Below are positions 1 to 54,951 of a stretch of 64,000 bases of DNA, piece after piece. Within the stretch, counting starts at the first letter, position 1. Each line of letters begins with the position of its first letter. A program made the translations under genes and the position numbers. The stretch is from Microlunatus soli (GTDB taxonomy: Bacteria > Actinomycetota > Actinomycetes > Propionibacteriales > Propionibacteriaceae). Where the stretch lies: assembly GCF_900105385.1 (NCBI RefSeq), contig NZ_LT629772.1:6200001-6264000 (forward strand), written 5' to 3'. Below the pieces are notes generated by a model. The model was given only the letters and a program-made list of their open reading frames with translations. It was not told where the DNA came from and did no database searches.

Positions 1-633
1 TGGGCCGAGTCCGGCGCGGAGTGGATCCATCTGGTCGACCTGGATGCCGCATTCGGTCGGGGCAGCAATGCCGAGGTGATCGCCGAGGTGATCAGCCGCA
101 CCGCCGAGGTCTCCTCGCTGCGGTTCGAGCTGTCCGGTGGCATCCGTGACGACGCTTCGCTGGAGCGTGCGCTGTCCACCGGATGTGCGCGCGTCAATAT
201 CGGCACCGCGGCGCTGGAGCAGCCGCAATGGTGTGAGGCGGTGATCAAGGAGCACCGCGACCGGATCGCGATCGGGCTGGACGTCCGCGGCGAGACTCTG
301 GCCGCGCGTGGCTGGACCACCGAGGGCGGCAACGTGTACGAGACGCTGCAGCGGCTGGACGCGGCCGGTTGCGCCCGCTACGTGGTGACCGATGTTGCCT
401 CCGACGGCATGCTCGCCGGACCCAACTACGACCTGCTGCGGTCGATCTGCGAACGAACCGACAAGCCGGTCGTCGCCAGCGGTGGCATCTCCACCTTGGA
501 CGATATCGCCCGGCTCCGCGAACTGGTCGGCATCGGCGTCGAGGGAGCGATCATCGGCACCGCACTGTACGTCGGCAACTTCACCCTCTCCGACGCGTTG
601 GACACCGCCGGCCGAGCCGAGGGGGACCGTTGA
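1..633 (+). CDS. priA: Phosphoribosyl isomerase A / HisA, 3' part
   Basis: The 5' end lies outside the window; reading is open from base 1 and 210 codons remain. The protein isomerises ProFAR in histidine synthesis. In actinomycetes lacking trpF the same (beta/alpha)8 enzyme (PriA) also isomerises phosphoribosyl anthranilate for tryptophan. Visible signatures are [13 protein letters not shown] near the N-terminal catalytic strand, LSGGIRD, GLDVRG, the second catalytic-Asp motif VTDVASDGM, and the phosphate-binding VASGGIS and GAIIGTAL. The stop overlaps the TTG start of the next gene. Whether it is the bifunctional form is inferred from the lineage. Confidence 0.93.
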
Positions 634-3074
634 GCACGGCTCCGGCGGAGTCGTTCGGTACGCCCCTGCAGGGTGCCACCCAGGCCGAGCATCCGGCTCC
701 CACGTTGGATGGCCGGTTGAAGGATCTGCTGGCCGGCAAGCGAATCCTGCTGACCGGCGTCACCGGGTTCATCGGTGAGCAGCTGCTCTGGAAGATCCTC
801 AACGACCTGCCGGACACGACCGCGGCGGTGCTGGTCCGCAAGAAGGGTTCGGCCACCGCGCGGTCGCGGACGATCGGCGTGGTCAAGAAAAAGATCTTCA
901 AACCGCTGACCGAACCGTACGGTGGCCCGGAGGGTCTGGTCGATGCCCGGATCGAGGTGATCGAGGGCGATCTGCCGAACGTCCCGGAACTGCCGACCGA
1001 CATCGACGTCCTGGTGCACTGCGCCGGCGACGTCTCCTTCGACCCGCCGATCGACCGGGCGTTCAACACCAATCTGATCGGCACCGGCGCCCTGATCGAC
1101 CGGTTCCTGGAGTCCTGCACCGGAGCCGACGGTGAACTGACCCGGATGCCGCACTACGTGCACGTCTCGACCGCCTACACCGCCGGTCGGCGACGCGGCG
1201 CGATCGGTGAGGCGCCGCACGCGCACGACATCGACTACCGGGCCGAGATGGAGGCCGGGCTGGCGATGTCGGCCGAGATCGAGAACGCCTCCCGGACCGC
1301 CGATCAACTGACCAAGTTCCGCAAGGAGGCCGAGCGGGAGCATCGTGCCGCCGGCCACCTGATCACCGCAGCCGACACCGAACGGCGCCGCAAGGAATGG
1401 GTGCAGAAGAAACTGGTCGAGGCCGGCACCGAACGGGCCCGGTCGCTGGGCTGGACCGACGCCTACACCTTCACCAAGGCGCTGGGGGAGAAGCTGGTTG
1501 CCGAGAAGTGCGCCCATATCCGCGCCTCGATCGTCCGGCCGGCGATCGTGGAGTCCTCGATCAAACATCCCTATCCGGGCTGGATCGAGGGCTTCAAGAT
1601 GGCCGAGCCGCTGATCCTGGCCTACGGCCGCGGCGAACTGCCGGAGTTCCCCGCTTCGCCGGAGGCGGTCTGTGACGTGGTGCCGTGCGACTACGTGGTG
1701 AATGCGACGCTGGCGGTCGCGGCCACCGAACCGCATGTCGGGGTCTGCGAGTACTACCACGTCTCCTCCGGCGCCCGGAACCCGTTGACCTTCCAGCGGT
1801 TCTACACCTTCGTCAACGGCTACTTCACCGAGCATCCGTTGATCACCGGCGTCCGCGGCGCACCGGCGCTGCCGCAGTGGCAGTTCCCGGGCGCCGCCTC
1901 GGTCGAGCGGCTACTGTCCCGATCCGAACGTGGGCATGCGATCGCCGACCGCTTGATCAAGTTCGCACCGCGTTCCGAACGCACCCGCAAGGTCGCCAAG
2001 GACCTTGATCGTTTCCGGTCCCGGATCGACTTCCTGCGGGAGTACCTCGGGCTCTACAACGAGTACGCCCAATCCGAGCTGCACTTCGTCGACGACAACA
2101 CCCTGCGGCTGACCAAGTCGCTGCACGACGAAGATCAGGACACATTCAGCTTCGACACCGCCGACTACGACTGGTTCACCTACATCCAGGAGATCCACAT
2201 CCCTGCGGTGGTCGCGCCGATCCGCCGATTGGAGGCGCTGCGACGCCGTCGCGGCTCCCGGCCGACGACGTTCACCGACCTGAGCAGGTCCAACGACGAA
2301 CCTGGTACGGTGCTGGCCGCTTTTGATCTTGACGGCACGGTGATGTCGACCAACGTGATCGAGCAGTACCTGTGGTCCAAGCTGCCCGACCTGTCGCCGC
2401 CCGGCCGACTCGCCGAGGCCGCATCGATCCTCGGCAAACTGCCCAGCTACCTGCGGGCCGAGCGGACCGACCGCGGGATGTTCCTGCGTTCGGTCTACCG
2501 CCGCTACGCCGGCGCCGATCTGGCCGCCCTGGAGGAATACGTCGACACCGTGATGGCCCGGGAGATCCTGTCCCGGCTGTCGCCGGACGCCGTCCGCCGG
2601 GCCCGGGAGCATCGTGCCGCCGGACACACCACGGTGTTGATCACCGGCGCGATCCGGCCGCTGACCCGGCCGCTGGAACCGTTGTTCGACGTGATCGTCG
2701 CCAGCGATCTGGCCACCGACGAGCAGGGCATCTGCACCGGCTTCCTGACCGGCCCGCCGATGGTCGGGGAGTCCCGGGCAGCCTGGCTGAATCACTATGC
2801 GGCGCTGCACGGGATCGATCTGAAGAAGAGCTACGCCTACGCCGACAGCCATCCCGACCTGGCGATGCTGTCGGTGGTCGGCCGGCCGGTCGTGGTCAGC
2901 CCGGACGTGCCGTTGATGCGGGCCGCCGCGGCCAACCAGTGGACGACGGTGGAATGGAAGATCAAACCGCAGGACCGGCGCTGGTCGCGGCCGTTCCTGC
3001 AACGCGGTCGGGACGTGCCGCCGCGGGAGGACGGCGTCGCAGCTGTGACGTCCGAACTGAGGGGAGACCGCTGA
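630..3074 (+). CDS. Fatty-acyl-CoA reductase / HAD-IB phosphatase fusion
   Basis: An 814-residue two-domain protein. The N-terminal half is an extended SDR of the alcohol-forming fatty-acyl-CoA/thioester reductase type: the Rossmann motif TGVTGFIGE is near residue 40 and the YTFTK catalytic Tyr/Lys near 278, followed by a helical sterile-like region. The C-terminal part from about residue 560 is a HAD-IB phosphatase, with FDLDGT (nucleophile Asp), ITGAIRP and ADSHPD. The TTG start at 630 overlaps the priA stop and has a GAGGGGGA ribosome site. The likely role is reducing an acyl thioester to an alcohol and removing a lipid-linked phosphate; substrate unknown. Similar domains occur in ElbD, the myxobacterial ether-lipid protein. 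Confidence 0.82.
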
Positions 3075-4556
3075 ATGGCGCGCCCAGGCTTCGTACTCGA
3101 AGTGGACGATCGGACGCCGCCGCTGGTGGTGAACGACGGACCTCGGGTGCGGTTGGAACGGTTCCCGCTCGGCACCGAGGTGGTCTACCCGGGCGAATCG
3201 CTGCCGCGGCTGGATGATCTGGCCGGCGGCATCGACGCCGCGCTGGCCGAACCGGTCGACGCCGCGCCGTTGGCCAGCAAGCTGCGCGCCGGGATGAAGC
3301 TGACGATCGCGTTCGACGATGTCTCGTCCACCGCGCCGCTGCACGCTCCCGATGTCCGCGGCCGGATCATCGAACGGGTGCTGATCCAGGCCGCCGCTGC
3401 CGGCGTCGACGACGTCGCGCTGATCTGCGCCAACGGCCTGAACCGGCGCAACACCGAAGCAGAGTTGCGTCGGATGCTCGGCGAGCGGGTGTTCCGCTCG
3501 TTCTACGCCGACGGTCGGCTGACCAACCACGACGCCGAGGCCGCCGGCAGCGACTCCGGCGAGCTCAACGCCCGCGTCGCCGATTCCGACCTGTTGGTGA
3601 TGGTGCACCTGGTGCACGGCATCGGCACGGACGTGCGCAGCAGCGGACGCGCCGGTGTCGTCGAGGGTCTGGGGTCGGTCGCCGCGATCCATACCGGCGC
3701 CACGTCGACCGCTCTGGACACGATGGACGTACTCAGCATCGAGGCCGTCCTGGACAACGACCGCTATCCGGCCGCCGTCGACTTCCTCGGTCGCCGCGAG
3801 TGGGAGTGGACGCTGAAGTCTCAAGCGAAACTTCTCGGACTGCGGCAGGCGACCCGGATTGCGCCGACCAGGTCCGCACAGCTGATCGGCAGCGGTCTGG
3901 GAGCCGGCTACGGCGTCACCCGGGTGACCGCCGGCGCGCCCGACGCGGTCGCCGAGGCGAGCCGGGCACGGATCCTGGAGCAGCAGCAGGTCGAGGTGTC
4001 CGGCCAGGCCGACGTCCTCGTCCTCGGTGTGCCGGGCGTCACCGCGCACAGCGTGGACTCGGTGACCAATCCGGTGCTCGCCGCCTGGCAGGCCCTCGGC
4101 GTCGGCTATCAGGCGGCGACCGCGGGGCCGTTGGTCCGTGACGGCGGCAGCGTGATCGTCTATCACCCGCTCAGCCCGGACTTCAGCAGCCTGCACCACC
4201 CGTCGACGGTGGACTTCTTCGCCGACGTGTTGCCGGTCAGCACCGATCCGGCGGAACTGTCCGACCGGTTCGAGACGAAATTCGCCGAGGACCCGTGGTA
4301 CCGCCAGCTGTACCGGACCTCGCAGGCCTTCCATGGGCTGCATCCGTTCCGGCTCTGGGCCCAGCTCAGCGAGGCCGTCGCGCAGGTCGGTGACGTCGTC
4401 TTCGTCGGAGCCGACCGGACCAGCGCAGCCCGGCTCGGGTTCCGGGCCGCCTCGACGTTGGCCGACGCCCTGGAGATCACGGCCGCGTCGGTCGGCCGGA
4501 CACCCAAGATCCGCTACCTGCACACGCCACCGAACGTGTTGGGCGCCGTCACGTGA
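3075..4556 (+). CDS. Divergent LarA-family (nickel-pincer racemase-like) protein
   Basis: 493 residues, longer than typical LarA (about 425). The lactate racemase N-domain pattern is visible: FDDVSSTAP (residues 80-88), the ANGLN...TEAEL helix start (119-131), NHDAEA (151-156), and the region equivalent to GFSGGRK followed by a histidine (183-206). By-eye alignment with Lactobacillus LarA gives Arg75->Ser, His108->Asn (N123) and the cofactor-anchoring Lys184->Ala (A193), with a His (H206) kept near the nickel ligand. It probably acts on an alpha-hydroxy substrate, or has another role if the cofactor is not bound. It lies in a coupled cluster between an acyl reductase and an acyltransferase, so a lipid or lipid-precursor substrate is inferred. 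Confidence 0.72.
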   Translation: MARPGFVLEVDDRTPPLVVNDGPRVRLERFPLGTEVVYPGESLPRLDDLAGGIDAALAEPVDAAPLASKLRAGMKLTIAFDDVSSTAPLHAPDVRGRIIERVLIQAAAAGVDDVALICANGLNRRNTEAELRRMLGERVFRSFYADGRLTNHDAEAAGSDSGELNARVADSDLLVMVHLVHGIGTDVRSSGRAGVVEGLGSVAAIHTGATSTALDTMDVLSIEAVLDNDRYPAAVDFLGRREWEWTLKSQAKLLGLRQATRIAPTRSAQLIGSGLGAGYGVTRVTAGAPDAVAEASRARILEQQQVEVSGQADVLVLGVPGVTAHSVDSVTNPVLAAWQALGVGYQAATAGPLVRDGGSVIVYHPLSPDFSSLHHPSTVDFFADVLPVSTDPAELSDRFETKFAEDPWYRQLYRTSQAFHGLHPFRLWAQLSEAVAQVGDVVFVGADRTSAARLGFRAASTLADALEITAASVGRTPKIRYLHTPPNVLGAVT

Positions 4557-5260
4557 GGACTCCGGCGCGGATCGCCGACCCGGTGCGACGGATCCTGCAG
4601 GCAATGTCCGGGCGACCGCTGCTGGCCGCTCGGATCCGGTTGGAGGTCGGCGACCGGAGCGCGATCACCGAACCGGATCGACCGATGGTGATCGTGGCCA
4701 ATCACGCCAGCGGACTGGACAGTCAGGTGTTGCGGGCGGCGCTGCCGCCGCGACTGCGTCGACGTACCACGGTCGCCGCCGGCAGTCAGAGCCCTGATGC
4801 CGCGCTCGCCGGCGGCCGGAGCGTGCTGATCTTTCCCGAGCAGGAACGCTCGACCGACGGTGTGATGGGCGCGTTCACCGAGACCGCCGCGGCGCTGGCG
4901 ATCCGGCACCGGGCGCCGGTGCTGCCGGTCGGGATCCGGGGGACCTACGCGGTGCTGCCGTCCGGCCGGACCTGGCCGCCGAAACTGCCGTTCGGCCACG
5001 TCCGACCCCGGGTCAGCGTACGGTTCGGTTCTGTGCTGCACGCCGACCCCGACGAGACCGCATCGTCGTTCACCGACCGGATCAGTGACGCGGTACGGAC
5101 CGCGATCGCCGAGGACCGGACCACCTGGTGGCAGAGCCTGCGACATGGCCACGACGCGGCCACCCTGCCGCCGGCGGGCAGTTGGCGGCGGATCTGGGAA
5201 CAGAGCCAGTCTCCTCGGCCGGGCGGGCAGCCGCGACGGCCCCGCATCTGGAAGGGCTGA
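4553..5260 (+). CDS. 1-acyl-glycerol-3-phosphate acyltransferase-like (PlsC family)
   Basis: 235 residues with the PlsC acyltransferase core. The catalytic NHxxxxD box is NHASGLD (residues 49-55 approx.). The acceptor motif usually written FPEGTRS reads FPEQERS here, followed by the VLPVGIRG block. The GTG start overlaps the upstream stop (GTGA), so translation is coupled to the LarA-like gene. It has no clear transmembrane segment and a basic Pro-rich tail. Expected to transfer an acyl chain to a lysolipid or glycerol-phosphate acceptor. The altered motif III suggests an unusual acceptor. Confidence 0.82.
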   Translation: MRTPARIADPVRRILQAMSGRPLLAARIRLEVGDRSAITEPDRPMVIVANHASGLDSQVLRAALPPRLRRRTTVAAGSQSPDAALAGGRSVLIFPEQERSTDGVMGAFTETAAALAIRHRAPVLPVGIRGTYAVLPSGRTWPPKLPFGHVRPRVSVRFGSVLHADPDETASSFTDRISDAVRTAIAEDRTTWWQSLRHGHDAATLPPAGSWRRIWEQSQSPRPGGQPRRPRIWKG

Positions 5261-6403: not shown

Positions 6404-7651
6404 GTGGGTACAGGTCGTTTTGCTGTCGTTTCTGGTGTTGGCGCTCGCTATGGATCAGTGCTCCGTACCCCTGGTGCGTTGAGGTTCTTCCCGTGGGCGG
6501 CGATCGCGCGACTGGGTGTGGCGATGAGTCGACTGGCCGTGTTGTGGGCTGTTCAGGGAGGTACCGGATCCTTCGGCCAGGCGGGTGCGGCGACCGGTGC
6601 CTTTGCGGTTGCCGACGCGGCGGTCGGGCCGCAGGTCGGCCGCCTGGTTGATCGGTGGGGGCAACGCCGTGTCGTATCGGCCACGGTTGTGCTGTTCATC
6701 GCAGCCGCGATCGGTCTGGCGATCGGCAGTGCTCGAGGATGGCCCACCTGGGCTCTGATTGGTCTAGCAGGCGTGGCCGGTGCGACAGCTCCGCCGGTGG
6801 GCGCGTTGTCGGCAGCGCGGTGGCGCAAGGTGGTTGGGTCGTCCGACCGGCTTCGATCGGCGCTGTCGTTGGAGGGATCGCTGAATGATGTGACCTTCCT
6901 GGTCGGGCCGGTGCTGGTGACCACTCTGAGCGCCACGGTCGTTTCCTGGTGCGGGCTGATCGCGGCTGTGGGTCTGGTAGCAGTGGGGATGGCCGGATTG
7001 TTGACCGCTCGGTGGAGCGAGCCCGTGCCGGCTGGGTCATCCGCTGGTCTCCTCGTTGATCGCCGGCTGATGAGTTCGCGGTTCGGCGCGTTGTTTGTGG
7101 CAAATCTGGCGATGGGACTGTTCTTCGGGGGTGTGCCGGTGACGGTCACCGCCTTCGCCTTGGCGCACGGTGCCGGGGCCTTGGCCGGGCCGATCGCTGC
7201 CGGCAGCAGTGTGATCAGCCTGACCGCCGGTTTGGTCTACGGCGGCACCCAGCGGGGCAAGCCATTGACGGTGATGACGACTGTGAGCGTGATCATCACG
7301 ATCGGTGCGGCGATGCTGGCGCTGGTTCCGAACGTTCCGGTCATGTTCATCGGCTATGGCCTGGTCGGCGGGTGCGTAGCGTTGATCTTGATCCCGGCCG
7401 CCGTCTTGTTGCAGCAGGCCACCGCAAGTGAGGTTTACACGCAGGCGATGACCTGGATCAATTCGGCGAGCGCGATCGGAATCGCCATTGCCGCGCCGCT
7501 CGTCGGCTATCTCGTCCAATCCCACGGCTGGGCGGTCGGATTCCTGGCCACGGCCGCCCTGACGGCGATCCTGCCGCTGACACTCCTGCTGACCCGGCCG
7601 GTCCTGATCGTGTTGCAGCACGACGCGGTATCGACCGATGCCGGTAGCTGA
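6404..7651 (+). CDS. MFS transporter
   Basis: About 415 residues with roughly 12 hydrophobic segments and the MFS loop motif GRLVDRWGQRR between helices 2 and 3. The start is uncertain: GTG 6404 has a GAGG ribosome site, but GTG 6458 would begin directly at VLRTPGALRFF, the usual N-terminus of this type. Codon use is somewhat richer in TTG, CGT and GTT than its neighbours, a weak hint of separate origin. It is probably a drug or metabolite exporter; the substrate cannot be read. It has 142 bp of non-coding DNA upstream, so it should have its own promoter. Confidence 0.82.
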   Translation: MGTGRFAVVSGVGARYGSVLRTPGALRFFPWAAIARLGVAMSRLAVLWAVQGGTGSFGQAGAATGAFAVADAAVGPQVGRLVDRWGQRRVVSATVVLFIAAAIGLAIGSARGWPTWALIGLAGVAGATAPPVGALSAARWRKVVGSSDRLRSALSLEGSLNDVTFLVGPVLVTTLSATVVSWCGLIAAVGLVAVGMAGLLTARWSEPVPAGSSAGLLVDRRLMSSRFGALFVANLAMGLFFGGVPVTVTAFALAHGAGALAGPIAAGSSVISLTAGLVYGGTQRGKPLTVMTTVSVIITIGAAMLALVPNVPVMFIGYGLVGGCVALILIPAAVLLQQATASEVYTQAMTWINSASAIGIAIAAPLVGYLVQSHGWAVGFLATAALTAILPLTLLLTRPVLIVLQHDAVSTDAGS

Positions 7652-52020: not shown

Positions 52021-52902
52021 ATGACGTCGGTACCACCGACCGTCGACCACACCGACACCGATGGCACCGGTGATGATCGTGATCGGATGGAACGCGATCT
52101 GGCCGCCGAATTGAACGGCGTCGGCCGATTGGGCGTTGCGTTCTCCGGCGGTGTCGACTCCTCGGTGTTGTTGGCCGCCGCGGTCCGTGCTCTCGGCCCG
52201 GACCGGGTGGTCGCGATCCTCGGCGTGTCACCCAGCCTGGCCACCGCCGAACGGGCCGCCGCCCACGAGGTCGCCCGGTTCATCGGCGCCCCGGTGGTCG
52301 AGGTGGACACCCACGAGGGTGACCGGCCGGAGTATCGCGCCAACGGGGCGGACCGCTGCTACTTCTGCAAGGACGAACTGTTCACCCGGATCGACGACGA
52401 ACTGGTCGCCGAACACCGCCTGGACGCCGTCGCCTACGGGGAGAACGCCGACGACGCCCGCCGACCGGACCGGCCCGGAGCCAACGCCGCCAGCCAGCAT
52501 CGGGTGCTGCGTCCGCTGGCCGCGGCCGGGCTGGACAAACGTGCCGTGCGGAGCTTGGCCCGCGCCTGGCAGTTGCCCTCGGCCGACAAACCCGCCGCTC
52601 CCTGCCTGGCGTCCCGGATCCCGCACCACCAGGAAGTCACCCCGGAGAAGCTGCAGCAGATCGACCAGGCCGAGGCCGCGTTGCGCGAGCTCGGCTTCGC
52701 CGACTTCCGGGTCCGTCATCACGGCGAGATCGCGCGGATCGAACTGCCTGCCGAGGAGTTGGTCCGGGCGGTCAGCCAGCCACTGGCCGGTGAGGTGCGC
52801 AGCGCCGTGCAACGCGCCGGCTTCCGATTCGCCACCGTCGACCTGGGCGGCATGCAGTCCGGTGCCTTCACCCTCACCGTGCTCGGCCAGCGCGATGCCT
52901 GA
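52021..52902 (+). CDS. larE: LarE, sulfur insertase for the nickel-pincer cofactor
   Basis: 293 residues. PP-loop SGGVDSS at 42-48 for substrate AMPylation. RCYFCK supplies Cys113 and Cys116, and PAAPCLASR supplies Cys195, equivalent to the sulfur-donating Cys of Lactobacillus LarE. All three cysteines suggest the [4Fe-4S] type that does not sacrifice its own Cys; this is an inference from the pattern. LarE adds two sulfurs to the pyridinium bis-carboxylate made by LarB. It is the first gene of the larEBC operon. The first 25 residues are a variable acidic leader. Confidence 0.93.
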   Translation: MTSVPPTVDHTDTDGTGDDRDRMERDLAAELNGVGRLGVAFSGGVDSSVLLAAAVRALGPDRVVAILGVSPSLATAERAAAHEVARFIGAPVVEVDTHEGDRPEYRANGADRCYFCKDELFTRIDDELVAEHRLDAVAYGENADDARRPDRPGANAASQHRVLRPLAAAGLDKRAVRSLARAWQLPSADKPAAPCLASRIPHHQEVTPEKLQQIDQAEAALRELGFADFRVRHHGEIARIELPAEELVRAVSQPLAGEVRSAVQRAGFRFATVDLGGMQSGAFTLTVLGQRDA

Positions 52903-53701
52903 ACCGCAGCATCCCGAGCCAGCAGGACCGCAGCTGGAGGGCATCGCCGACCTCGACTTCGCCCGCGCCGACCGCCGCGGCTACCCCGAAGCCGTCCTCT
53001 GCGAGCCGAAGTCGGTGGATCAGGTGGCCGCGATCGCCGGGGCGGTCGCGGACCGCGCCGCCGGCCGGGAGCCCGACCAGGTGACGCTGTTCACCCGGGT
53101 GTCGGAGGAGCAGGCCAAGGCCGTCCTCGGCGTGCTGCCGGACGCGCACTGGGACCGGACCGCTCGGCTGGTGGCCTGGCCGCCGGCGGTCCCCGAGCCG
53201 TCCGGCGGGCCGGTGCTGGTGCTGTCGGCCGGCACATCTGACGTTCCGGTCGCCCGTGAGGCGTTGCTGACCGCCCGGTATCTGGGCCGGTCCGCCGAAC
53301 TGGTGGTCGACGTCGGCGTCGCCGGACTGCACCGGGTGCTCGGCAAGCTCGACCGGCTGCGTACGGCGCGGGTGATCGTGGTCGCGGCCGGGATGGACGG
53401 GGCGCTGCCCAGCGTCGTCGCCGGACTGGTCCGTTGCCCGGTGATCGCGCTGCCCACCTCGGTCGGCTACGGCGCCGCCTTCGGCGGACTGGCGCCGTTG
53501 CTGACCATGCTCAACTCCTGCGCTCCCGGTGTCGCCGTGGTCAACATCGACAACGGCTACGGTGCGGGTCATCTCGCCGCCCAGATCGCCCAGGGCCCCG
53601 AGCCGAACAAGGGCCCCGAGCCCGTCGAAGGCCCCGGACCGCACACGACGACCGGCCCCTCGGCAAGCTCCGGGGCCGGCAATCCGGAGGACCAATCGTG
53701 A
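52895..53701 (+). CDS. larB: LarB, pyridinium-3,5-biscarboxylate synthase
   Basis: 268 residues. The C-terminal PurE/AIR-carboxylase-like domain has VLSAGTSDVPVAREA, VVAAGMDGALPSVVAGLVRCPVIALPTSVGYGAAFGG and a Cys at about 181, the position expected for the catalytic Cys. LarB carboxylates nicotinic acid adenine dinucleotide and releases AMP, the first step of cofactor synthesis. ATG 52895 overlaps larE by 8 nt. The last ~35 residues (GPEPNKGPEPVEG… and on) are low complexity, derived from a dispersed repeat, and probably disordered. Confidence 0.92.
   Translation: MPEPQHPEPAGPQLEGIADLDFARADRRGYPEAVLCEPKSVDQVAAIAGAVADRAAGREPDQVTLFTRVSEEQAKAVLGVLPDAHWDRTARLVAWPPAVPEPSGGPVLVLSAGTSDVPVAREALLTARYLGRSAELVVDVGVAGLHRVLGKLDRLRTARVIVVAAGMDGALPSVVAGLVRCPVIALPTSVGYGAAFGGLAPLLTMLNSCAPGVAVVNIDNGYGAGHLAAQIAQGPEPNKGPEPVEGPGPHTTTGPSASSGAGNPEDQS
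53593..53676 (+). repeat. Dispersed repeat absorbed into the 3' end of larB
   Basis: GGGCCCCGAGCC occurs at 53593-53604 and 53611-53622; the second copy continues CGTCGAAGG. CGGCCCC...CGGGGCCG at about 53653-53678 can form a hairpin. Same family as at 14.37 and 32.06 kb. Confidence 0.6.
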
Positions 53702-54951
53702 CCGAGCGCCATGCCTGGATCGACGCGTCGGCCGGGATCGCCGGCGACATGCTGCTCGGGGCGTTGATCGACGCCGGAGCCGACCTGCAGTTCATCCAGA
53801 CCTGCATCGACGCGGTGCTGCCGGATTCGATCCGGCTGCGGACCGAGCCGGTGACCAGGGCCGGGATCGCCGCCACCAAGGTCCATGTCGACGTCCTCGT
53901 CGACGACCCGCCGCATCGGACCTGGAAGTCGATCTCCACGATGCTGGCCACGGCCGAGGTGCCCGAGCCGGTCCGTCGCAACGCCACCGCGGTCTTCGCC
54001 CGACTCGCCGAGGCCGAGGGGCAGGTGCATGGCGTGCCGGCCGACGACATCCACTTCCACGAGGTCGGCGCGCTGGACTCCATCGCCGACATGGTCGGGG
54101 CCAGCGCCGCCCTGCACGATCTCGGCATCGTGTCGCTCAGCGGCAGCCGGGTCGCCGTCGGCTCCGGCACCGTACGCGCCGCGCACGGCAGGATGCCGGT
54201 CCCGGTGCCGGCCGTCACCCGGCTGGCCGACGGCTGGGAGATCCTGGCCGGCGGCGAGGGGGAGCTGACCACGCCCACCGGGATGGCCGTGCTCGCCGCG
54301 CTCTGCCAGGAGTGCACCGACCTGCCGGCGATGCGGATCAGCATGGTCGGACTCGGCGCCGGCAGCAAGGACTTCACCGGGCGGGCCAACGTCACCCGGG
54401 TGCTGATCGGGCAGCGACAGCAGACGACCAGCGACGAGGACAGCGATCCGGCGGTGTTGCTGGAGGCCAACGTCGACGATTTCGATCCGCGACTCTGGCC
54501 CGGCGCCCTGACCGCGCTGCTGTCCGCCGGCGCGTCCGACGCATGGCTGGTGCCGATCCTGATGAAGAAGGGACGGCCGGCGCACACGCTCTGTGTGTTG
54601 GCTCATCCGTCGGCCGCAGCCGGGTTGCGTGACGTGATCCTGGAACAGACCAGCACCATCGGCGTCCGACAGACCGACTACCGCAAGTTCGCCTCGCCAC
54701 GGGCCTGGACCAAGATCGACATCTCCGGCGGAGCAGTGCTGATCAAGCTCGCCCATCGCGACGGTGTGATCCGGCAGGCCACCCCCGAATTCGACGATGT
54801 GTCAGCGGTCGCAGCATCCCTCGGACTGCCGGTCCGTACGGTGCTCGCCGAGACGATCGCCGCAGCACATACCGCCGGACTCCGGCCGGGCGAACCGCTT
54901 CCGGCCGAGGCCAGTACCCATCGTTTCTCTTGCAGGGAAGGACAATCATGA
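53698..54951 (+). CDS. larC: LarC, CTP-dependent nickel insertase
   Basis: 417 residues in one uninterrupted frame. The N-terminal WIDASAGIAGDMLLGALIDAG and HFHEVGALDSIADMVGA, the central GEGELTTPTGMAVLAAL, and the C-terminal EANVDDFDPRLW with LMKKGRPAHTL are conserved in the family. LarC inserts Ni(II) into the bis-thiocarboxylate using CTP to form the pincer cofactor. In Lactobacillus full LarC needs a ribosomal frameshift (larC1/larC2); none is needed here. The GTG overlaps larB after GGAGG; the stop overlaps the next ATG. Confidence 0.94.
   Translation: MTERHAWIDASAGIAGDMLLGALIDAGADLQFIQTCIDAVLPDSIRLRTEPVTRAGIAATKVHVDVLVDDPPHRTWKSISTMLATAEVPEPVRRNATAVFARLAEAEGQVHGVPADDIHFHEVGALDSIADMVGASAALHDLGIVSLSGSRVAVGSGTVRAAHGRMPVPVPAVTRLADGWEILAGGEGELTTPTGMAVLAALCQECTDLPAMRISMVGLGAGSKDFTGRANVTRVLIGQRQQTTSDEDSDPAVLLEANVDDFDPRLWPGALTALLSAGASDAWLVPILMKKGRPAHTLCVLAHPSAAAGLRDVILEQTSTIGVRQTDYRKFASPRAWTKIDISGGAVLIKLAHRDGVIRQATPEFDDVSAVAASLGLPVRTVLAETIAAAHTAGLRPGEPLPAEASTHRFSCREGQS

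Follow-up and report, generated by a model that had tools for sequence, protein, structure and literature searches.

A LarA homologue without the nickel-pincer cofactor residues in a lipid-type gene set of Actinomycetota

The window analysed here, a stretch of 64,000 nucleotides from Microlunatus soli, encodes a homologue of the lactate racemase LarA in which fold and gene position are kept and the residues that hold and use the nickel-pincer (NPN) cofactor are missing. The best explanation, to which we give a probability of roughly 0.6, is that the protein descends from the NPN enzymes of the LarAH14/15/16 clade, has become free of the cofactor, and now serves the neighbouring PlsC-type acyltransferase and/or the upstream FAR-HAD protein (a fatty acyl-CoA reductase fused to a HAD domain) as a partner, structural or regulatory. 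Independence of the cofactor is well supported for the window protein; the structural or regulatory role is what we infer from a fold and a gene position that remain under selection, which make a protein–protein job the most likely one.

A LarA fold without the cofactor residues

By descent the protein belongs to the LarA/Lar_N superfamily: the reading frame has an ATG start and 493 residues, its product matches the Pfam domain Lar_N at 59.5 bits (cut-off 23.3), and its predicted structure has the two domains of LarA. The best match among the NCBIfam models is LarAH14/15/16 (NF052592, labelled “NPN-dependent hydroxyacid isomerase”), yet at 480 bits the protein falls under the 740-bit cut-off and is not a member by that model, which elsewhere gives 337 bits for another example from the same family, 625 for an example from a Frankia-like genus, and 912–929 for three relatives of NPN type. 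The AF2 model (pLDDT 93.8) has 9q3k as its top PDB match (TM 0.75), and the closest solved folds are those of LarABw and LarASp (9q3j and 9q3k, TM 0.71–0.75); an NPN-type control reached TM 0.78. Eighteen of the 19 PDB matches with E <0.001 are named as LarA-type enzymes or as lactate or malate racemases, the nineteenth, 4nar, being titled merely as a Thermotoga maritima protein. The Lactobacillus plantarum enzyme (5huq) has the two-domain fold (TM 0.58–0.63) and Asp72 in common with the window protein, which lacks equivalents of its Arg75, His108, Lys184, and His200. The window genome encodes four Lar_N proteins in all.

In NPN chemistry the pincer is held at a lysine and a histidine, and a catalytic histidine acts in addition (PMC12611868, PMC7583248); the tethering lysine has been called universally conserved in a 2025 paper (PMC11851776). 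LarABw and LarASp are LarA enzymes with a single catalytic histidine (PMC12611868), and the NPN-type relatives of the window protein have the same Asn at position 174. LarASp carries NPN on Lys195 and has a nickel-ligand histidine (PMC12611868), whereas the window protein has neither.

To assign residues (Table 1), the protein was aligned with relatives and with a typical LarA paralogue from the same genome, which served as anchors. A preliminary description, made by eye, had read Lys184 as replaced by Ala193, His108 by Asn123, and Arg75 by a serine (Ser85), and the anchored alignments bear out all three. The third change says little when taken alone, since NPN-type members of the subfamily have Leu or Ile in place of Arg at position 75, besides their Asn at 174. 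No alignment brought a lysine and both catalytic histidines into place: the Lys184 column holds Ala193, and at the two histidine positions stand Asn123 (108) and His178 (174), the placement of the latter being uncertain. The column of the nickel ligand His200 is a gap, and a loop (165–262 in the numbering of relative L010) is shortened in the window protein. A nearby His206 was considered as a residual nickel ligand and rejected, the two nearest relatives of the protein having Arg or Ala there. The signature of the single-histidine subfamily (His108, Asn174, Lys184) is thus matched at 0/3 positions, against all three in 99/99 NPN-type relatives. The divergence is concentrated in the cofactor loop, where the protein matches 9 of the 40 columns that are ≥95% conserved in NPN-type relatives, in comparison with 123 of 154 elsewhere; several positions that align in sequence with the substrate site of LarASp have drifted too. 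Compared with LarAH14/15/16 proteins at large, which occupy the same gene position, the window protein lacks the tethering lysine, the nickel-ligand histidine, and His108, and with none of these in place NPN catalysis appears very unlikely.

Table 1. Features of the window that bear on the LarA homologue.
Feature	Positions	Strand	Basis
hisA/priA; 5' end beyond the window; left border of the synteny in the family	1..633	+	Pfam His_biosynth
FAR-HAD, fatty acyl-CoA reductase type (NAD_binding_4 + Sterile) fused to HAD-IB; start approximate	634..3074	+	Pfam, NCBIfam
NPN-less LarA homologue, LarAH14/15/16 clade, 493 aa	3075..4556	+	ORF, Lar_N, NF052592, AF2 model
Asp82, equivalent of LarA Asp72, kept	3318..3320	+	Alignment
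Ser85, aligned to LarA Arg75; NPN-type relatives have Leu/Ile	3327..3329	+	Alignment
Asn123, at the position of LarA His108 (general acid/base)	3441..3443	+	Alignment
His178, at the LarA His174 position; placement uncertain, loop remodelled	3606..3608	+	Alignment
Ala193, at the position of LarA Lys184 (cofactor-tethering lysine)	3651..3653	+	Alignment
Site lacking the Ni-ligand-histidine segment (RHHHN in relatives)	3690..3698	+	Alignment
PlsC-type acyltransferase; HX4D kept, FPEGTRS reads FPEQERS	4553..5260	+	Pfam 40 bits, motif alignment
larE, NPN cofactor sulfur transferase	52021..52902	+	TIGR00268 281 bits
Probable larB; start approximate	52900..53701	+	ORF between larE and larC; named by position only
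larC, nickel insertion; start approximate	53695..54951	+	PF01969 417 bits

The loss is shared by the window's family and by a Frankia-like genus

We aligned 182 sequences: 99 of NPN type, 74 from the window's family (the window protein included), 8 from the Frankia-like genus, and one outgroup, the groups being defined by source and not by residue. The family is taken to be Propionibacteriaceae, because a metagenome-assembled genome named as such (L009, the same locus as L150) falls inside the group in the LarA tree and shares its contig with a family genome; 76 of the family's 198 genomes have a copy at E 1e-50 or better, and these strong copies are spread over 12 genera. Short copies (L116, L117, L196, L227, L228, and L229) and identical duplicates were left out before counting, and of 497 loci detected the named ones are the 80 most similar to the query.

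Asp72, His108, Asn174, Lys184, and His200 are invariant in the NPN-type group (99/99). Lys184 is found in 0/74 sequences of the family and 0/8 of the Frankia-like genus; in the family, furthermore, His108 is present in 3/74, a histidine in the nickel-ligand column in 5/74, and Asp72 in 52/74. The loss in the Frankia-like genus is less complete, with Asn174 in 0/8 but Asp72 in 8/8, a histidine at the nickel-ligand column in 6/8, and His108 in 3/8. Within the family, 30 of the 40 NPN-conserved columns of the cofactor loop are lost and one is kept, as against 37 of 154 lost outside it; over the whole protein, 39 of 194 conserved columns are still kept at ≥95%. A sequencing error or pseudogene confined to one strain is ruled out by the 74 full-length NPN-less sequences of the family, the window's included, and misalignment of the loop was rejected as the sole cause of the missing lysine given the counts at its column in the three groups.

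Some copies stand apart from this pattern. In three genomes (G304, G307, and G308) LarA and FAR are both in pieces, and since FAR is split as well as LarA, these are probably assembly errors. One draft genome (G396, contigs 140 and 431) carries the LarA gene twice, accompanied by a FAR-HAD each time. A distant LarA-like pair (L269 in G652 and L270 in G783) is also without the NPN residues and has no FAR, HAD, ADH, or PlsC match nearby. Outside the clade, L274 (G500, contig 54) has Ser in place of Lys184 and keeps His108 and the nickel-ligand histidine motif; to judge from its sequence, it is the sole one seen that could bind NPN without the lysine.

LarC follows the other LarA proteins

Both larE and larC are present in the window genome, about 49 kb from the NPN-less LarA and in the same window, so the cofactor is probably available in the cell. 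Among relatives the cofactor genes were surveyed as LarC matches. Of the 76 family genomes that have a copy, 30 give such a match (25/64 of the good-quality ones), as do 34 of 35 genomes of the class sample with an NPN-type copy, 27 of these copies having been read over their whole length; the one genome of the 35 without a match, G152, is a draft assembly in about 850 contigs. For the Frankia-like genus the class sample gives LarC in 0/9 genomes, a figure that is no independent test, as the group was noticed for lacking LarC and its residues were read later. Across that genus as a whole, 10 of 13 genomes have a copy and 0/13 an intact LarC, with one LarC fragment of 46 positions.

Lar_N matches were counted within the family as well: a second LarA is present in 29 of the 30 genomes that have LarC, and in 39 of the 46 that lack it the single Lar_N match is this LarA-type protein. 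LarC thus tracks the other LarA proteins and not the NPN-less one. Three genomes of the family (G371, G373, and G375) have a strong match to a typical Lar_N protein (E about 1e-54) and no LarC match, which may reflect draft gaps or cofactor salvage.

The preliminary description had allowed for a LarA branch in which the nickel-pincer cofactor is bound with no lysine link. Non-covalent NPN has been described in the LarA of T. thermosaccharolyticum (PMC11796402), larE and larC are at hand in the window genome, and L274 indicates that such a binder may exist elsewhere. In the window protein, however, the loss reaches well beyond the tether, to the nickel-ligand histidine, His108, and most of the cofactor loop, and LarC goes unmatched in 46 of the 76 family genomes that have a copy; we have accordingly dropped this reading as very improbable.

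A conserved gene neighbourhood

The genes FAR-HAD, LarA, and PlsC lie in this order on one strand of the window, and the tight packing noted in the preliminary description is confirmed: LarA starts at 3075, directly after the end of FAR-HAD at 3074, and the LarA stop at 4556 and the PlsC start at 4553 overlap by four bases (GTGA). FAR-HAD is an acyl reductase of the male-sterility type, and the window copy has both YxxxK and the HAD nucleophile. We take YxxxK as the motif of FAR, the nucleophile as that of HAD, and HX4D and FPEGTRS as those of PlsC.

In loci with enough flank (those with short flanks were left out of the NPN-type counts), FAR is found upstream in 73/74 NPN-type, 41/41 family, and 7/7 Frankia-like loci, and PlsC downstream in 77/78, 37/41 (31/41 with the window query alone), and 7/7, respectively. 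The 41 family loci come from 40 of the 76 genomes with strong copies, plus L009, which repeats one of them. HAD is listed in all 41, the figure of 35/41 in one count being due to the gene-start coordinates used. Many loci also have a zinc alcohol dehydrogenase upstream of LarA: at least 46 of 74 NPN-type ones and 7/7 Frankia-like ones, against two of the 41 family loci, both of which are one locus. The gene sits between HAD and LarA (for example at 6702–7889 in L010) and has a weak likeness to scyllo-inosose 3-dehydrogenase.

Beyond these groups the arrangement thins out. In 20 more distant loci, picked from 115 matching genomes of the phylum sample, HAD and ADH are upstream in nine, FAR is present in seven, and PlsC in three, with none of these in 11; the lysine is kept in 17 of the 20. 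The proposed triad of FAR-HAD, LarA, and PlsC therefore exists and recurs in many loci, without extending to the whole clade: the distant loci have it only in part. PlsC was not found in any of 11 fetched HisA–FAR-HAD loci that lack LarA (from 11 of the 12 genomes with a strong FAR-HAD and no LarA), FAR-HAD being present in all of them. Four diverged FAR-HAD loci gave neither LarA nor PlsC, and in four loci of one genus LarA is kept and PlsC was not found.

Selection on LarA and its partners

LarA is under purifying selection. Its dN/dS is 0.09–0.18 in eight pairs from the family, 0.13–0.44 in a second set of eight, and 0.31 for the window protein paired with its closest relative, in comparison with 0.15–0.41 for Frankia-like and 0.02–0.18 for NPN-type pairs. 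The loop is looser in most pairs, reaching 0.67 in the window pair. FAR-HAD is more conserved: identity to genome G385 over the best segments is 92% for FAR and 88% for HAD against 70% for LarA, and the motif residues of FAR and HAD are present in 41–42 of 42 family rows.

PlsC is changing as well. The histidine of HX4D is present in 18/38 family loci, in contrast to 7/7 Frankia-like and 78/78 readable NPN-type ones, and dN/dS in eight family pairs is 0.19–0.98 (0.57 for the window pair), the PlsC and FAR-HAD values having been taken from stop-to-stop frames and so being inflated. This range suggests that selection on PlsC is weaker.

The main rival to a cofactor-free partner begins from these observations: LarA and PlsC could be a pathway branch that the family is slowly abandoning, both proteins still being produced and their folds put up with, function being nearly gone and FAR-HAD carrying on alone. 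Catalytic residues have been lost from both proteins, PlsC is missing along with LarA wherever the latter was absent from a fetched syntenic locus (11/11), the sequence of LarA changes faster than that of FAR-HAD, and the dN/dS of PlsC comes close to 1 in one pair, albeit in inflated frames. The data on PlsC, indeed, fit decay as well as they fit a partner role, and at least 11 loci with FAR-HAD do without LarA and PlsC, which counts against our preferred reading. We nevertheless regard slow decay as unlikely, because the frames are full-length in 74 family sequences, LarA dN/dS is well below 1, strong copies persist in 12 genera with 39 of 194 conserved columns held at ≥95%, and the broken copies in three genomes, in which FAR is split too, suggest assembly errors.

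Another reading keeps the protein catalytic, with a new, cofactor-free activity of the C-terminal domain on a lipid intermediate. His364, Asp380, Asp406, Trp408, Arg414, and His420 are kept in 91–100% of the family, and the operon neighbours are lipid-type enzymes. The same six residues, however, are just as invariant in the NPN-type relatives, and so could be there for structural reasons. The position corresponding to LarASp His401 has its histidine in 41% of the family, and no more than three columns are newly fixed there, which do not have the look of an active site. We judge a new activity of this kind improbable. The other possibility raised in the preliminary description, a cofactor-free enzyme of lipid metabolism, consequently survives in part: freedom from the cofactor is well supported and the lipid-type neighbourhood is conserved, but the drift at the substrate site and the absence of the PlsC histidine from 20 of 38 family loci speak against the enzymatic half. 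Between a non-catalytic role and a new catalytic activity, the former agrees better with these data.

Number of losses

Whether the site was lost once or more often was addressed with a LarA tree, made from 12 of the 74 family, 6 of the 8 Frankia-like, and 31 of the 99 NPN-type sequences, and with a FAR-HAD tree of 13 family, 6 Frankia-like, and 27 NPN-type rows. In the LarA tree both NPN-less groups are clades (100/100) and are placed apart, the Frankia-like one with Frankiaceae rows of NPN type at weak support (64/79); a single origin is not rejected (p-AU 0.20). An earlier LarA tree, rooted on a very distant paralogue, brought long branches together and needed one change of state; it did not serve for rooting. 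The FAR-HAD tree rejects the two groups as one clade (p-AU 3e-46), with the Frankia-like genus beside named Pseudofrankia and the family with Nocardioides and a genome labelled Streptomyces. Provided that the genes are inherited together, the FAR-HAD tree implies at least two losses, and we conclude that a repeated loss of the site, on two occasions or more, is probable. Horizontal transfer of LarA by itself could link the two groups; the FAR-HAD tree argues against a shared origin only insofar as LarA travels with FAR-HAD, and the LarA tree leaves the matter undecided.

Discussion

The course of events that we favour would begin with a single-histidine NPN enzyme of the LarAH14/15/16 clade, encoded in many Actinomycetota in the order FAR-HAD, often a zinc alcohol dehydrogenase, LarA, and PlsC. 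The cofactor site would then have dissolved in the window's family and, separately, in the Frankia-like genus, fold and gene position being kept, and NPN chemistry may have been given up for a protein–protein job with PlsC and/or FAR-HAD. In the window's family PlsC, too, is losing catalytic residues. Counting against this course are the presence of larE and larC in the window genome, the retention of Asp82, and the less complete loss in the Frankia-like genus. A bolder form of the proposal, which is possible though we hold it only tentatively, has LarA and PlsC as a pair of pseudoenzymes, both of which lost catalysis in one family and were kept as non-catalytic subunits of the fatty acyl reductase, with an independent switch of LarA in the Frankia-like bacteria.

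That LarA-like proteins without the NPN residues exist is already in print: Desguin et al. (2020) reported LarAH groups 12, 13, and 16 with non-conserved catalytic and NPN-binding residues, and set them aside as maybe not LarA homologues (PMC7583248). In distinction to the treatment of those groups there, descent, gene order, probable repeated loss, and the correlation with LarC are examined here, and these, together with the parallel loss in PlsC, are new within the literature searched, as far as our searches reach. The paper on LarABw and LarASp suggests carbohydrate metabolism for those enzymes (PMC12611868), whereas the context in the window is lipid-type. Our search of the open-licence PMC literature found no paper on the FAR-HAD/ADH/LarA/PlsC gene set or on a LarA pseudoenzyme.

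A large and clearly homologous clade has thus shed an organometallic cofactor site, probably twice and in the same gene context, in many genomes without larC, and a blanket annotation of Lar_N proteins as NPN-dependent racemases is risky. The finding also brings FAR-HAD/ADH/LarA/PlsC to attention as a lipid-type gene set in Actinomycetota. NPN-type and NPN-less proteins paired in one setting amount to a natural experiment on what the cofactor contributes, and on how a metalloenzyme becomes a non-metalloprotein. If the bolder form of the proposal is correct, LarA would always have had a second, structural job in the operon, and dependence on NPN would be something that these proteins can shed.
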